NCBI GenBank assembly: GCA_947624785.1
Contig: CANQLV010000006.1
Location: 62,001-126,000 of the forward strand
DNA from: Akkermansia muciniphila
GTDB lineage: Bacteria; Verrucomicrobiota; Verrucomicrobiia; Verrucomicrobiales; Akkermansiaceae
Direction of reading: 5' to 3'
Length of the DNA stretch: 64,000 bases
The position numbers and the translations under genes are program-made. The notes beneath the pieces were generated by a model. The model was not told the origin of the DNA. It saw only the letters and a list, made by a program, of their open reading frames with translations, and did no database searches. Each line of letters begins with the position of its first letter. Position 1 is the stretch's first letter. This document shows positions 16,901 to 42,100 of the stretch, piece after piece.

Positions 16901-16935
16901 AAGGACCGCCTCATTCATGGGGCGGTTCTTTTTGT
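16901..16935 (+). terminator. Rho-independent terminator of the aminotransferase gene
   Basis: A 10-bp stem (16901-16910 with 16921-16930, one G-U) closes a 10-base loop and leads into T residues. Confidence 0.85.
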
Positions 16936-17003: not shown

Positions 17004-17033
17004 TTGACATTTGAATGCATAACAGCCTATCAT
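17004..17033 (+). promoter_or_regulatory. Sigma70-like promoter of secreted cassette 1
   Basis: TTGACA at 17004-17009 is followed after 18 bases by TATCAT at 17028-17033, five of six consensus bases. The cassette's first start codon lies about 30 bases further down. The surrounding DNA is distinctly AT-rich compared with the core genes. Confidence 0.6.
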
Positions 17034-17064: not shown

Positions 17065-18053
17065 ATGAACTCTACCACCTTCAGCATCTCCTTTTCCGGC
17101 CTCCTTCTGTATGCCCTGATTGTGCTGACTCATGCAGAAGATATTCCAGCCACGGATGACCGCTCCCTGTACATCGAATCGGAAACTAAAGCAGTCTCCC
17201 CTCAATGTCTCATGGACAAAGGAGACCAGGATGAGGACAAGAAACGTACCGAAGTCGGAATCGGCGAAGTGGTTATATTAACCTTGAACGGCAAGCGATT
17301 AAAGGAAATAGATATGGACTCTATTGAATGGTCCCTGGAGCCGGAGAAGATAGCCACCATCGAGGAATCGGACCAAGAAAAAATCAGGCTACGCTGACGA
17401 TCAATAAAGACCTCACTCAGAACACCACGCTGAAGATCCGGGTAAAAACCAATCTTGACGAAGAATTGCCAGCAAGACCTCCCTCCATTTTCACCATTCT
17501 TGTTCCTTCCGACATCACAGCAGAGCATTCCGGGGAACGGGACAAGGAGCATCCCCAAGACAAGGAAAAAGACAGACCGGGGGCTTCCTCCAAGCTTGTT
17601 GTCACCTTTCTGCCCCTGAATGTCAGCTTCAGCAATATTTCCATCATAGAACGGGCGGAAGATCCGGAAGGATTCACTCCCGTTCATATCCCGGGAAAAC
17701 TGCTGATAAGGCCCAATGCCCTCAACATTCACCGTCATGATACCATTGGATGGAGATGGGACAAAGAGCAGGATATTCGTTTGCAGCACTTGCAGAACAT
17801 GAAGCTTCCCAGCTCCTTTTCATGGACCTGCGGATGGTACATACGCGCCGACGGCAAAGACCACTGCAAGATCAGCAATGACACGTACACCCAGGATTTC
17901 AGTTTTAAATATGAAGACGGCATAGAAACTGATGAGAAATCTCCCACCAGGGGATTGAAAAACATCAAGGTCACCATCACCAAATTCGGATGCACCGTCA
18001 CACGCAGCACAGCAGGCGATGCTTTGCATGTCAACTCTACAACTTCTCAATAA
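17065..18053 (+). pseudogene. Cassette 1 gene A: exported Ig-like protein, frame interrupted at an A6 tract
   Basis: Two frames make one gene. The first runs from ATG 17065 and reaches TGA at 17395-17397. The second continues homologous sequence to TAA at 18051-18053. The switch sits at the A6 run 17378-17383 (codons GAA-AAA-ATC): one extra A, or a -1 slip on AAA, gives a 329-residue protein. The N terminus is a signal peptide (hydrophobic core ISFSGLLLYALIVLTHAED). TEVGIGEVVILTLNG opens an Ig-like beta domain. The C-terminal half includes NVSFSNISIIE, SSFSWTCGWYI and NIKVTITKFGCTVTRS. A diverged homologue is at 39891-40765. No function is known to me. It could be a broken gene, a slippage-switched gene or a sequencing error. 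Confidence 0.7.
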
Positions 18054-18070
18054 CCCCTTTTTACAACGCT

Positions 18071-18898
18071 ATGAATCATTCCTGCCGCCACCTCCTGCCG
18101 TACTTTCTTTTCCTGCTATCTTTTACCTGTTCAGCCTCTCCGCCCCAAGAACAGCTCCCCCTCCCCTCTGTCATCAGGAATCCGGACAAACAGAATCCGG
18201 AACTCCTCCGGCTTCAGAAACTGCTGGACAACGGCCAGCTTATCCTGTTTTACCAGGGGGCCGACAAAATGCGGAAAGAAGCCAAACGCTACAGGAAGAA
18301 GGACGTCACGCCCCAGGAACTGACGGACGGACTCTTTCTGTATTACATGATTGCCAAGGCACCGTTCCTTGACCTCAACGACTACAACAATGTCGAATGG
18401 GTTTCCGAGTATAGTGATCTGGATCACACCGTAAAAGAATTCATGTCCAACAGCATCCCGTTCATCGCCCTGACGGACAAAAACAGCAAGCTCCCGAACA
18501 AGGAAGAAGCCCTGCGGTTTTATTTAAGCGCCACCGCGCTGGTGATTAAACAATTCCACAGCCAGGTGGACTACGCTTTTAAAGCTACGGAGATTTGCGC
18601 TGATATGCTCATTGATTACGCCTCCGACATGTCCGGCGAGCAGGAAACCAGGCTGTTCAACACCACAAGCGCCCGCGGAGCGAGAAGCAACAGCGCCCAA
18701 TACATCATCAAAAGCAAGGAACGCGGCTTCATCAGGGAATTGATGACCTGCTTCCCGACCAAGGCACGGGAAGTCAGAAAATACCTCAACCTGGCCGGAT
18801 ATGAAGACAAGGAAATTCCGGCCTTGCTGGACAGAACCGTTGGAAGGGTTCCGGAAGCTGACTATTTATACAAGGGTTTGCCCAAACGAAGTGACTAA
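18071..18898 (+). CDS. Cassette 1 gene B: exported helical protein of unknown function
   Basis: The 275-residue product has a signal peptide (MNHSCRHLLPYFLFLLSFTC, then SAS) with a cysteine that is not in a clear lipobox. The mature part is charged and helix-rich: LRLQKLLDNGQLILFYQGAD, a middle SATALVIKQFHSQVDYAFKA, and a C-terminal FPTKAREVRKYLNLAGYEDK ending in a short helix. The partner in cassette 2 (40780-41688) shares the LKKLLDDGQ start and the FPEKKSEMRKYIKMAGYSDQ end. It starts 17 bases after gene A, so both are probably cotranscribed and coupled. ATG at 18071 is chosen because it begins the signal peptide. I recognise no domain. Confidence 0.75.
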   Translation: MNHSCRHLLPYFLFLLSFTCSASPPQEQLPLPSVIRNPDKQNPELLRLQKLLDNGQLILFYQGADKMRKEAKRYRKKDVTPQELTDGLFLYYMIAKAPFLDLNDYNNVEWVSEYSDLDHTVKEFMSNSIPFIALTDKNSKLPNKEEALRFYLSATALVIKQFHSQVDYAFKATEICADMLIDYASDMSGEQETRLFNTTSARGARSNSAQYIIKSKERGFIRELMTCFPTKAREVRKYLNLAGYEDKEIPALLDRTVGRVPEADYLYKGLPKRSD

Positions 18899-18903
18899 AA
18901 AGA

Positions 18904-19024
18904 CGGCATCCCGAACGTCAGCGTCGTGGAACCTCAGGGCGTCTTCTACTTCTTTGTAAACACCAGCAAGCCGGGGCTTACCTCCCTGAACCTGTGAGAC
19001 AAGATTCTGGAACGCTACAAATAG
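18904..19024 (+). pseudogene. Degenerate duplicate of the aminotransferase 3' region
   Basis: This 121-base stretch aligns without gaps to 16625-16745 of the aminotransferase gene at a constant offset of 2279 bases. I count about 10 mismatches over the 111 bases from 18910. It translates as IPNVSVVEPQGVFYFFVNTS and onward to ILERYK, with an in-frame TGA at 18996-18998. The 5' three quarters and the last part of the parent gene are absent. It lies directly behind cassette 1, so cassette and fragment are bracketed by two copies of the same sequence. Confidence 0.88.
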
Positions 19025-37164: not shown

Positions 37165-37196
37165 CAACCCTTCTGTGCCAAACCCTGATTCATGTC

Positions 37197-37232
37197 AAAC
37201 GGTTCGGGCGTCTTGCGCCTGAACCGTTTTTC
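37197..37232 (+). terminator. Rho-independent terminator of the lipoprotein gene
   Basis: A 14-bp stem (37197-37210 with 37216-37229, one G-U) with a 5-base loop is followed by T residues. Confidence 0.9.
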
Positions 37233-37248
37233 ATATCAGGATGCGCGC

Positions 37249-37728
37249 ATGGGATTTGATCCGGCATCTTTGGGAATGATAACGCTGGCCGCCACTTCGG
37301 CGGCAGCGGGCGCGGCCTCCGCGTCCGCCCAGAAAAAAAGCGCGGACGCCGCCAGGAAGGCGGCGGATGCAAACGCCGCCACCCTCAGGAACGAGGCGGA
37401 CCTCCAGAAACAGACGGGCGTGGAAAACGCCAAACGCATGCAGCAGGACGCCACACGGCAAATGGGTGACGCCCGCCTGGACGCCGCCCAGTCTTCCCTG
37501 CTCCGGGATGGTTCCGTACCGGTCAGGGAACAGGCCCTGGCGACGCGCCTGCAAACCAGGATTCAGGATGAAGCCGCGGAAGCCATGAGGAATGCCCAGT
37601 CCCTGTACAACCGGGCGAACATGGAACAGTACCTGGGCCGCGCCAATGCAAGAGCCCAGAAAACCGCCGCGGCAGGCACCCTTCTCTCCGGATTCGCCCA
37701 GGGAGGCAACGCCCTCCTCAAATGGTGA
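37249..37728 (+). CDS. Small Ala-rich protein resembling a phage internal virion protein
   Basis: The 159-residue product starts with a hydrophobic, Ala-rich segment (LGMITLAATSAAAGAASASA) followed by a long Gln/Ala/Lys coiled-coil-like region (AQKKSADAARKAADANAATL through RQMGDARLDAAQSSLLRDGS). The C terminus is small and glycine-rich. Composition and layout resemble T7 gp14-type or similar DNA-ejection proteins of tailed phages, but no other phage gene is nearby. ATG at 37249 is chosen because the upstream in-frame ATG (37192) precedes a terminator. It could be a remnant or domesticated phage gene. The family assignment is by layout only. Confidence 0.45.
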   Translation: MGFDPASLGMITLAATSAAAGAASASAQKKSADAARKAADANAATLRNEADLQKQTGVENAKRMQQDATRQMGDARLDAAQSSLLRDGSVPVREQALATRLQTRIQDEAAEAMRNAQSLYNRANMEQYLGRANARAQKTAAAGTLLSGFAQGGNALLKW

Positions 37729-37754: not shown

Positions 37755-38681
37755 TCAGCGGGAACCGGAACCTGTCTGCGGAACCTCCGCAGGCGCCGGA
37801 AGAACTTCCGGCACCACGCCGCCTATGCCTATTTTGATATTCACGGGAACCGGCCTGATGCGGGAGGGCCCCTGGTACAGAGCAGCCACTTCTACAAACC
37901 GGGGCGAATTCCTGAACAGGAAGGATTTTCCCCTGTCTTCATTGTAAGAATGGTCGCAGGTAGGAACAGGCTTCAATCTCGCGCCTTTCACATCGTGAAA
38001 CACAAAATCCTCCGCCCGGAACATCTTCTCCGAATACACCTCGGAATACACCATGAACTTCCATTCCTCCCCCGGTTCGTTCGCCGGCGCATGACGGCTG
38101 CGCCCCGTCTGCCTGGTCACTTTCAGCGTCACCGTCTCCAGCTTGGACATGTCGGCTACTTCCACCCGGTTATTCTCCAGGGCTCTCCGCACGGCAACAG
38201 GGTCCGGCACCGGAATGGAAACGCCGCTCTCCTTCAATTCCACCACCCCGAAATCAAGAGACTCCAGCCCCTGGCACAAAGGGAGAAAAAGAGTGCCGCT
38301 CACCTGAATCCAGCGGGCTCCCGGAGAAGGCACATCCTTTAAATCAAGGCTCACGTTTACCCGCCTCAAGCCCTTGTCCTCAATAATCCCTTCCCATAGA
38401 CGGATGGAGCGCACTCTCAGACGCACGCCATTGGAATCGACAGCCGTCAATTCCTGTTCCGGCTGTTCCGGAGCCAGCATTTCAGAACCTGGAAACACGC
38501 AATACAGCACGATGCCCGTCTTGGTGAAATTAAAAGGCTCCCCCCTCACCAGTCCCATGGAAGACAGCCCGATGACGGGCCCCTTCAAGCTGGTGCCGGA
38601 ATAGGAAGCGCTCTTAACGGGAATATCCGCCGCCATCAGCGTTCCCGCACACCAGCAGGCGATTGTGACAAACCATTTCAT
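37755..38681 (-). CDS. Exported beta-rich protein of unknown function, tandem paralogue 1
   Basis: The 308-residue product has a signal peptide (MKWFVTIACWCAGTLMAADI). The body is beta-rich: PGARWIQVSGTLFLPLCQGL and DFGVVELKESGVSIPVP in the middle, VTLKVTRQTGRSRHAP near the centre, and VPVNIKIGIGGVVPE near the end. The neighbour at 38695-39486 shares the pattern PGAxWxxxxGxL, a Pro-rich linker and the VPVxxKIGxGG end. No domain is recognised. The stop is close to the phage-like gene. Both paralogues may be transcribed together from upstream. Confidence 0.7.
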   Translation of the reverse strand: MKWFVTIACWCAGTLMAADIPVKSASYSGTSLKGPVIGLSSMGLVRGEPFNFTKTGIVLYCVFPGSEMLAPEQPEQELTAVDSNGVRLRVRSIRLWEGIIEDKGLRRVNVSLDLKDVPSPGARWIQVSGTLFLPLCQGLESLDFGVVELKESGVSIPVPDPVAVRRALENNRVEVADMSKLETVTLKVTRQTGRSRHAPANEPGEEWKFMVYSEVYSEKMFRAEDFVFHDVKGARLKPVPTCDHSYNEDRGKSFLFRNSPRFVEVAALYQGPSRIRPVPVNIKIGIGGVVPEVLPAPAEVPQTGSGSR

Positions 38682-38694
38682 CTGCTTATGCGGA

Positions 38695-39486
38695 TTAACA
38701 GCCGGGAACGGCAGCCCCTCCCAGGCCTATTTTCATATCTACGGGAACCTTGCGGAACATGCGCTTATTCCAATAGGAAACCACCACGCGCAAGGAGCGG
38801 CAGCGGGCGGAAACACGGTAATCCTTCCCCCACATGCGCATCTTCCTGCCCCGGCTGTTCAAATCGCCCCGGCCTTTCAGGGGAAGTCCGTTTTCCTCTC
38901 TGACACTCATGGAATTAAAATAAAAATCACTCCTTCCCTCCACCTTCAGTTTCCAGCGGTTAAAGCTCTTTTCCAGCGTAAGGGCCACCTTGTCCTTCCG
39001 CGGCTTTTCAAGAGGCAATTCCACCCTGGTTCCTTCTTCCAGCAGAGGCAGAACTACGGCGGGCAGCTCCACCAGGTCATCAGCAAAAGCGCACAAAAGA
39101 AATCCCCGGAGGCGCACCCACTCCGCACCGGGGTCAGGACGCTGGATAGCGGCGGCAAACCAGACGGGGTCACCGTGACCCACGCCAAACGCCTTGGTCG
39201 CATCGGCGGAAATCCTGTAAATCTTCAGGTTCCTTCCCGTTGAATCCGTGCAGACAAGCTCATCCGGAACCTCTTCATAAAAAACGGGCCCCCCAAGCTG
39301 ATCTTCATAAACGCATGACATCCCCAGCAGCAACTGCGGAATAATCCTGGTCACAGGATCTTCCACCAGAATTCTAAGGAAGGACAAATGCAGCGCCGCA
39401 TCCCGGAGCAACGGAACATTCGTTGAAGCAACAGCGGGATGGATAGCTGAACACACGAGAAAGAGACACGCGGAAAAACACTTCAT
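38695..39486 (-). CDS. Exported beta-rich protein of unknown function, tandem paralogue 2
   Basis: The 263-residue product has a signal peptide (MKCFSACLFLVCSAIHPAVA). It shares with the next gene on the strand PGAEWVRLRGFLLCAFADDL, a following LPLLEEGTRVELPLEKPR, and the end VPVDMKIGLGGAAVPGC. Similarity is clear only in these parts, so the pair diverged long ago. It begins at the edge of AT-rich DNA that leads into cassette 2. No known domain. Confidence 0.7.
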   Translation of the reverse strand: MKCFSACLFLVCSAIHPAVASTNVPLLRDAALHLSFLRILVEDPVTRIIPQLLLGMSCVYEDQLGGPVFYEEVPDELVCTDSTGRNLKIYRISADATKAFGVGHGDPVWFAAAIQRPDPGAEWVRLRGFLLCAFADDLVELPAVVLPLLEEGTRVELPLEKPRKDKVALTLEKSFNRWKLKVEGRSDFYFNSMSVREENGLPLKGRGDLNSRGRKMRMWGKDYRVSARCRSLRVVVSYWNKRMFRKVPVDMKIGLGGAAVPGC

Positions 39487-39890: not shown

Positions 39891-40765
39891 ATGGGAATAG
39901 GAAAATATTTTATAATTGCCTTCGCCTGTGCCATCATGAGCGGCATAGACGTTCACGCGGAGAACAGGATGCTGGAGATCACATCCCAAACTGAAAAACC
40001 ATCAGCTGACTGCGTCATTAAAAAATTGAATGAAAAAAGGATAAAGCGCGAAAAGAAATCGGAATAGGAGAAATCGTAACACTAACACTAACCCGCAAAG
40101 GAGGAAAGCCATTAAATAAAAATACGAAGGTTACCTGGACTAAGAAAGGCAATGGAGCAACGTTAAGGGGCCGAGGAACCACTGCAACCTTGACGGCTGA
40201 CTTGATCATGGAAAATAATAATGTTACTGTCAAAGCGGAAGCTGATGATTTTCCTCCAGCAGAAATCACTTTTAACATTAAAAAACCGACTCGCTTAACA
40301 GGAAAAAAGGGAGAAGAATACGGCAAGCAATCAGATATTGGCTTCGGCATCACTGGAAAAATTATTGTTACTGTGCATCCAACGTCCGTCAGTTTTGCCA
40401 GGTGTGGCGTCATCGAAAAAGATGGCGGTACCGTTATTGACCCGAAAGCACCCCCGCCATTTAAAGTTAACGATCATGATCCCGGCAATAACGGGGATCC
40501 TCCCGATGCGCGTAACGAAATCTTTGATAATGTAACTTTGGTTATGTTATTTAATACTATTTCTAAGTTAAACGGAACGTGCAGATGGACATGGTTATGC
40601 AATTATGAAGTAACTCAAATTAAGAAGCGTATAGAACAAATTCAGCAGACATTTACCGTCACACGAACAAATGATCCTAAATTTCCAAAACAAAAAAACT
40701 GTTCCGGCACCATTATAAAATTCAAAGTTTCTTTTTCGGTAAAAGCTATAGAACAAACATTATAA
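39891..40765 (+). pseudogene. Cassette 2 gene A: Ig-like exported protein, frame interrupted at an A6 tract
   Basis: The frame opens at ATG 39891 with a signal peptide (FIIAFACAIMSGIDVHAE) and stops after about 58 codons at TAG 40065-40067. Homology resumes in another frame and runs to TAA at 40763-40765. The shift lies at the A6 run 40033-40038 (codons GAA-AAA-AGG): one extra A or a -1 slip restores a 291-residue protein. Shared with cassette 1 are KEIGIGEIVTLTL, the following Ig-like strands, VSFARCGVIEKDGG and CRWTWLCNYEV. The slip point is upstream of the EIGIGE block here but downstream of it in cassette 1, so the events are independent. Function unknown. Confidence 0.7.
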
Positions 40766-40779
40766 ATTTTTATCATAAA

Positions 40780-41688
40780 ATGATGAAGCTATTAATATCG
40801 GTTGGAATCCTCATTTTTTCCATCTATCCCGCCATGGCAAAAATACAATTATTTGACTCCAGCCTCGTCAAACCGGATTCTCCTGATGTTCTTAAAAACA
40901 TTCAGACACCTCCGTCAAAATTGAAAAAACTTCTTGATGACGGTCAATCAGAAGAATTTTTCAAGGAAGCAGCCATGGAACTTGAACGCATCAGGGAGCT
41001 TGCGGCAGAGAATGAATTCCCAAGTGAAGAAACTCGTAATAATACCCCCTAGATTTTTTATTTCATCGCCAATACACCTCTTGTTGCCATAGATTCAGCC
41101 GAGCAGGCAAGGTGCGCCATAAACAACCGTGACGCAGACCTTTATCTTAAGGAGGAAGCCCTGGAAATGCTCGCCATTTCCACTTATCGTGATCTTTTTC
41201 CCAATGGCAAGGCATCAAGAGAATTGATGGCATCCTATGGGGCAGCCATCATGCGCGGCTTCCTCAACGGCACCAAATCAAAATCCTACTCGGACAAGCC
41301 GGTATTCGTTTCTGATGAAGAAGCAAAAGCCATGCTGAAAAGAAACAGTGAGATCATGGAAAACGCATTTTCTGAAATTGCCCAAATCCAGAAAAAAGGG
41401 ACGGGGCTGGAAACAGATAAAAAGATAAATGACGTTTCTGAAGACATGAACAAACGGATTCATGACAACGGCCAGCAATTCCAAGATCACACCGTTGTGG
41501 TCAACACGCAAACCTCCCGAAACCTCCTGCTCAAGAATATTATTGAACGCTCGGAGAAGAACTTCATGATCCTTCTTACTGATTTATTTCCTGAAAAAAA
41601 ATCAGAGATGCGCAAATATATCAAGATGGCAGGATATTCGGACCAAGAGATTCGTAAATTTATCGATCGCGCCTTGGAAAAAGATTGA
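40780..41688 (+). pseudogene. Cassette 2 gene B: exported helical protein with an in-frame TAG
   Basis: A single frame runs from ATG 40780 to TGA 41686-41688 and is interrupted by one TAG at 41050-41052. Codons beyond the TAG continue IFYFIANTPLVAIDSAEQAR and align with LFLYYMIAKAPF of cassette 1, so this is one gene with a nonsense codon. The start is a signal peptide (MMKLLISVGILIFSIYPAMA). PSKLKKLLDDGQSEEFFKEA and the final FPEKKSEMRKYIKMAGYSDQ match gene B of cassette 1. It follows gene A after 14 bases. Translation could restart at ATG 41167, but that product would lack a signal peptide. Confidence 0.75.
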
Positions 41689-42025: not shown

Positions 42026-42100
42026 TGGCGTCCCCGGTAGGAATCGAACCTACATCTAGTCTTTAGGAGAGACCCGTTCTATCCATTGAACTACGGGGAC
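42026..42100 (-). tRNA. tRNA-Arg (anticodon CCU)
   Basis: On the minus strand the sequence folds as a full cloverleaf: 7-bp acceptor GTCCCCG/CGGGGAC, D arm GTTC/GAAC, anticodon stem GGTCT/AGACT with loop CTCCTAA (anticodon CCU, reads AGG), T arm GTAGG/CCTAC with TTCGATT, discriminator G and an encoded CCA. Its 3' end faces the AT-rich stretch to the left. It is 75 bases long with CCA. Confidence 0.96.

Follow-up and report, generated by a model that had tools for sequence, protein, structure and literature searches.

A patchily distributed two-gene cassette of exported proteins in Akkermansia that may work like an effector-immunity pair

Tandem immunity genes have been described for polymorphic toxins (Zhang et al. 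2012, PMC3482391). In gut Bacteroidales, orphan immunity genes and acquired interbacterial defense loci have been reported, with elevated non-synonymous change (PMC12247911). Here we describe a cassette of two genes, termed A and B, at positions 17065-18898 of a 64,000 nucleotide (nt) stretch of Akkermansia muciniphila DNA (assembly GCA_947624785.1, contig CANQLV010000006.1, positions 62,001 to 126,000 of the forward strand), which is referred to below as the window; a diverged second copy lies at 39891-41688. Akkermansia, a commensal of the gut, has been the subject of much study.

From comparison of these sequences we tentatively favor, at somewhat short of even confidence, the reading that A is a secreted or surface-held antagonist of related bacteria and B an exported immunity protein, the pair working in the manner of effector and immunity protein. 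We favor it because B is rarely the first to be lost, is under selection without A, occurs as tandem copies and switches type along with A. A would be secreted or held on the surface and aimed at related bacteria, and the exported B would shield the producer and its kin. Lines losing A would save its cost and would retain B because neighbors still produce the matching A. Spread and change of type would occur by homologous exchange through the flanking genes, since nothing but A and B is present in the cassette (its neighbors were judged by visual reading). An earlier note on this DNA had suggested that the two proteins work together, perhaps as an antagonism or adhesion pair; adhesion is the weaker fit compared with antagonist and antidote, as B outlasts A. 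If the pair is indeed attack protein and antidote, its patchy, exchangeable and orphan-rich distribution would predict which strains are able to coexist and would offer a direct genetic test.

The cassette resembles polymorphic toxin systems (PMC3482391) in that an effector-type gene is followed by a smaller immunity-type gene, in its variability among relatives and in its tandem immunity-type genes. With respect to gene order, 58 of 72 match clusters had A followed by B, where A would be the toxin and B the immunity gene. Unlike polymorphic toxins, A-B has no recognized toxin or trafficking domain, the C-terminal module of A is conserved rather than a variable tip, and both partners have signal-like N-termini. 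A conserved N-terminal trafficking part joined to an exchangeable C-terminal toxin domain was not found in A, which falls outside the polymorphic toxin definition on account of the C-terminal position of its conserved module and the lack of a recognized toxin domain, although a toxin fold of an undescribed kind may be present. As with the Bacteroidales orphan immunity genes (PMC12247911), an immunity-type gene of gut bacteria is retained without its own effector: among 65 loci, 20 kept B only and one A only, and one genome (G015) carries one B and no A match anywhere, B being the putative immunity gene. In contrast to those Bacteroidales loci, the Akkermansia orphans arise in place through loss of A at the same site, apparently not within a recombinase-linked array (flanking genes judged by eye), and show low whole-gene ratios of non-synonymous to synonymous change (dN/dS).

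Neither the A pieces in the window nor B matched any family above Pfam or NCBIfam cut-offs, PADLOC returned nothing for A or B (A queries were P0069 and P0116), and precomputed Pfam domains were absent from 75 A relatives. Literature searches found no account of an A-B pair, in keeping with the earlier note, which knew of no described system of this kind. In structure models, A is predicted to consist of an Ig-like N-terminal domain followed by a second beta domain, and B to be all-helical and solenoid-like. The predicted Ig-like fold of the N-terminal domain of A, if correct, would be a likeness to the Ig-like domains of intimin, FdeC and bacterial S-layer proteins. Export of both proteins, claimed from the window, was supported by a signal-like N-terminus in 39 of 40 A and 63 of 64 B sequences, as judged by a crude rule.

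The B profile matched 4 of 25 same-genus genomes and none of the 14 from other families in the order, and A was found in at least 10 of the 21 same-genus genomes listed. When all profile searches were pooled, A or B was present in at least 11 of 42 distinct same-genus genomes, a pool in which some genomes were scanned with a single profile, many were draft assemblies and one search was aimed mainly at known A carriers. Consistent adjacency of A and B, which the earlier note had named as support for a functional unit, was recovered in the 11 positive Akkermansia genomes: of their 72 clusters, the 58 mentioned above had A followed by B on the same strand, 14 had B only and none had A only. Copy number per positive genome ranged from 1 to 12; the window genome (G000, 3.08 Mb in 24 contigs) held 12 A/B loci, seven with both genes intact, and another (G129) held three A+B loci and two with B only. 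Six of the 14 B-only clusters were read by eye, two having A remnants (one broken, one fused to B) and four having none. In a fusion remnant at L248 / L205 (G129) the signal and start of A are in frame with B. At two orphan B loci, a conserved small open reading frame (ORF) of 73-74 amino acids (aa) lies directly 5' of B in A's place (L048 2371-2595 in G004; L199 2390-2611 in G182). A 10/12 promoter match within 200 nt upstream was present at 11 of 39 loci with intact A, where 2.1 would be expected from shuffled sequence. Intact A and B genes over all loci read had a G+C content of 0.46, compared with 0.56 in the flanks.

Sixty-five of the 72 clusters were fetched, the other seven each spanning 246 nt or less. 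To be scored as intact, a gene had to have a single stop-to-stop frame extending over 85% or more of the profile, a threshold of our own applied to profiles built from intact members; an earlier 80% rule had scored A of window copy 2 as intact, and the 85% rule scores the same gene as broken. In addition to the B-only and A-only loci above, 39 loci had both genes intact and five had neither. Recognizable pieces of A persisted at 13 of the 20 B-only loci, and seven had none. Loci were assembled into 23 site groups by shared flanks (blastn matches of at least 200 nt on the same side, again our own threshold); group 3 holds two G182 loci, is partly joined by a weak downstream match and merges at least two places, and contains no B-only locus. 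By group, a B-only locus occurred in 15 of 23 and an A-only locus in 1 of 23, and 13 groups combined a B-only locus from one genome with an intact pair from another. Given a length-corrected chance of 0.54, the binomial p value was 7e-5 by locus and 0.0015 by group, and the latter is the safer since orthologous loci can share one loss. Gene length does not explain the excess of A losses, because the medians are 332 codons for A and 294.5 for B and the length-corrected p remains low. The genomes were one per species and some were drafts, so that sequencing error may account for a small number of the frame breaks, expected equally in A and B. A second intact B follows an intact A-B pair at five loci (L234, L243, L247, L249, L254).

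Pairwise dN/dS was calculated by the Nei-Gojobori method with our own script, using within-group pairs with dS of 0.02-2 and excluding tandem copies; the pairs are not independent. Median dN/dS for B was 0.217 where both members had an intact A (35 pairs), 0.239 where one member was an orphan (23 pairs) and 0.247 where both were (6 pairs), and that of A was 0.187 (27 pairs). Orphan B remains under purifying selection. Site 7, where three B loci without any A gave dN/dS of 0.22-0.31 at dS of 0.14-0.20, weighs most in this respect because recent losses of A would not yet relax selection on B. These values bear on the main rival explanation, which we regard as unlikely: that A is a costly surface adhesin or coat protein lost under recognition by phage or host immunity, and B a leftover exported helper such as a chaperone, anchor or assembly factor. 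If so, the pair would be the marker of a hypervariable surface system. Once A is gone, a helper dedicated to it would be expected to degenerate, which leaves the selection on orphan B unexplained: its dN/dS is about the same as that of paired B. B is also duplicated in tandem. Furthermore, all 39 aligned Akkermansia A sequences retain four residues in the second domain (E, H, N and D), a pattern which seems to resemble a working site rather than variable binding loops.

At some sites compared between genomes, the flanks were similar and the cassettes were not. At site 3 (L020/L225) the flanks were 95.0 and 88.1% identical, A 40% and B 42%; at site 9 (L222/L240) the flanks were 85.7 and 88.3% and both A and B 34%; at site 6 (L218/L236) the flanks were 89.4 and 93.2%, A 60% and B 61%. 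A further site 6 comparison (L232/L236) gave flanks of 98.1 and 97.7% and B of 62%, A of L232 being broken, and at site 7 (L216/L220) the upstream flank was 94.5% and B 54% identical. Cassettes therefore appear, from these alignments, to have been exchanged or separately gained as units, because A and B differ equally wherever both are comparable. Site 5 is free of a cassette in three genomes (G074, G065, G013), where the two neighbor genes stand side by side. At the site downstream of a miaA-like gene, an A-B cassette is present in four genomes and other DNA in G182, G004 and G214 (L269, L272, L273), the latter insert comprising two minus-strand ORFs to which no function was assigned. The gene names miaA, mnmA, RHS and RCC1 used here were given by eye and are presumptive. 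Distances of A and B were correlated over 39 intact pairs (Mantel r 0.943; maximum of 999 permutations 0.251), and r was 0.78 for the 709 comparisons having an A identity below 60%. The functional unit proposed in the earlier note is thus upheld by consistent adjacency, joint replacement and co-divergence; mutual dependence of the two genes is not, as B is intact and selected where A is broken or absent.

Persistence of B without A under purifying selection, including in G015, would also be expected if B had its own envelope function and A were merely a dispensable modulator or ligand of B. We consider this improbable: a general envelope function of B is at odds with the occurrence of A or B in only 11 of the 42 same-genus genomes searched (some with a single profile, many as drafts), A never occurs without B or remains of B, and A and B differ together at shared sites. 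That the cassettes have no role at present and are selfish or decaying repeats, spread by recombination, is the least probable account: 26 of 65 loci, both window copies included, lack one or both genes in intact form and copy number varies as given above, but purifying selection (dN/dS near 0.2 for A and B) makes it unlikely, as do the 39 of 65 intact loci and the invariant E, H, N and D.

Several observations weigh against the reading of A as antagonist and B as its antidote. Locus L223 is the sole case of intact A with broken B, and same-site loci are related, so the counts of A and B loss are not fully independent. Some losses of A may have happened so recently that selection on B has had no time to relax visibly. 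Most positive genomes hold other intact A genes, which an orphan B might serve in trans. A itself is under purifying selection, and whole-gene dN/dS carries no sign of an arms race. No recognized toxin domain was found in A with Pfam, NCBIfam or PADLOC, and the C-terminal position of its conserved module is the opposite of that in polymorphic toxins. Differing cassettes at the same site could reflect separate gains and not swaps, and linkage by itself would make the two genes diverge in step. A and B are not strictly matched one to one throughout, since L258 and L255 are 65% identical in A and about 40% in B.

Relatives of A were also found outside Akkermansia. The A module, searched with a profile that included distant members, was present in at least 22 of 387 genomes of the phylum, at least 12 of them non-Akkermansia, and named relatives in the database were labeled Kiritimatiellia, Omnitrophota, Verrucomicrobiia, Akkermansia and, in one case, as a metagenome-assembled genome (MAG) of Syntrophales. 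Conservation was assessed over 71 rows classed as distant, drawn from these named relatives (at least one labeled Akkermansia) and from the distant loci, and over the 39 Akkermansia rows. In the distant rows E was kept in 68 of 68, H in 59 of 64, N in 48 of 63 and D in 58 of 63. A first-strand G.GE was also kept, as was a late K (33 of 36 distant and 32 of 32 Akkermansia rows), and R, G, G, E, W, P, V, F, E, H, N, D and K were mostly retained in distant two-domain modules. The distant module often forms the C-terminal end of longer proteins of up to 978 aa, whose N-terminal parts vary in length and sequence.

Twenty-four distant neighborhoods were read (25 were fetched, L100 being discarded as a chance match, and one more match was left unfetched), and the effective number is lower owing to close pairs (L099/L146, L135/L147, L140/L148, L136/L137). 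At 20 of the 24, the next same-strand gene began at -26 to +30 nt and had a signal-like N-terminus, a feature seen in 48 of 155 other ORFs of at least 150 aa at the same loci, a list which includes spurious frames. The four exceptions were L098 (gene suitably placed but lacking a signal by the rule), L144 and L145 (93 and 244 nt off) and L149 (contig end). Three of the 20 neighbors were of another type, one RCC1-like (L097) and two beta-rich-looking proteins of 192-193 aa (L136, L137); judged by a crude propensity score, the remaining 17 tend to be helical, some of them barely. None of the distant partner genes had significant sequence similarity to Akkermansia B, and seven were interlinked by phmmer (E-values for a set of 23). 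The two-domain module, usually with an exported-looking gene close behind, is thus a likeness between A-B and these proteins of other Verrucomicrobiota and of MAGs labeled Kiritimatiellia or Omnitrophota; their frequently greater length and dissimilar partner genes set them apart. It is possible, though doubtful, that A-B is the Akkermansia branch of an undescribed class of secreted effector-immunity systems across Verrucomicrobiota, having a single C-terminal module in which E-H-N-D is nearly invariant, a partner that turns over and orphan antidotes that are kept. Were that so, the cassette would be a main means by which strains of a major human gut commensal fight one another. The A module, found across the phylum with a fixed neighbor, provides a handle on a family missed by the domain libraries searched.

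Individual distant loci showed further arrangements. An RHS-like gene (by eye; no Pfam match) stands directly 5' of A in L096. In L134 (4178-6529) three exported-looking genes in succession follow an A-module gene, and the first and second of these resemble lipoproteins on visual inspection. The A-module gene of L097 is flanked by two exported genes with RCC1-like repeats, overlapping the first by 4 nt and lying 3 nt from the second.

Within the window, all cassette features lie on the plus strand. Copy 1 consists, as the earlier note described, of an A-type gene and, after a 17-nt gap, B. The conserved motifs quoted for A and B are present. The order and orientation claimed for the second copy also hold; its spacing is not equal, the A-B gap being 14 nt. 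The resemblance of the two copies exceeds chance, as the window genome contained 17 B matches (E up to 10), with a best non-self E of 1.1e-134. The G+C content is 0.50 in copy 1 and 0.41 in copy 2 against 0.58 for the window, in agreement with the AT-rich DNA that had been noted. Damage to both copies had gone unnoticed: A is split in both and B of copy 2 is interrupted by a stop, leaving B of copy 1 as the only intact gene of the four. Because A is broken in both, neither window copy is a working A-B pair in its present state. Unbroken close relatives of both window A genes exist in the protein database (P0075, P0116).

In copy 1 the start frame of A (17065-17397) is 110 codons long, ends at a stop at 17397 and encodes the signal-like N-terminus and the start of the Ig-like domain (EVGIGEVVILTL). 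The 3' part lies in a different frame (17376-18053; profile positions 108-318), encoding the remaining Ig-like domain and the VSF...E...H...N...D domain, and VSFSNISIIE is found in this second frame and not in the start frame. Gene B (18071-18898) is intact and encodes 275 aa with a signal-like N-terminus, all-helical in the model. If A is the antagonist and B its antidote, copy 1 would be an orphan antidote locus. The good promoter reported ahead of the cassette was confirmed as a sigma-70-like match at 17004-17033 (TTGACA-18-TATCAT, 11/12), the best scoring of three promoter-type sites near copy 1, where 2.0 would be expected. It sits 3' of a hairpin that resembles a terminator and belongs to the aminotransferase gene upstream (16901-16930; 13 pairs, 7 of them GC, with a T-rich tail; a consensus match only). 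Immediately 3' of the cassette is a 118-nt partial duplicate of this aminotransferase gene (18903-19020, 90.7% identical), which is also present in G112 (L241) and not in G004, G182 or G214.

In copy 2, the start frame of A stops after 58 codons (39891-40067), and the remainder, with EIGIGEIVTLTL and VSFARCGVIE, lies in another frame (40034-40765). In gene B, 90 codons precede an in-frame stop (5' part 40780-41052), which severs the 3' part bearing FPEKKSEMRKYIKMAGYSDQEI (41053-41688). With A as antagonist and B as antidote, copy 2 would be a dead locus. About 2.2 kb upstream of it, an ORF of 178 aa at 37192-37725 resembles a phage internal virion protein (phrog_418, E 7e-5); lying 4.3 kb before a tRNA-Arg gene (42026-42100), it is perhaps a prophage remnant. 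Between this ORF and copy 2, two adjoining genes on the minus strand (37755-38681 and 38695-39486) encode exported-looking proteins without Pfam match, which share similar ends (VPVNIKIGIGGVVPE and VPVDMKIGLGGAAVPG) and are apparently tandem paralogues.
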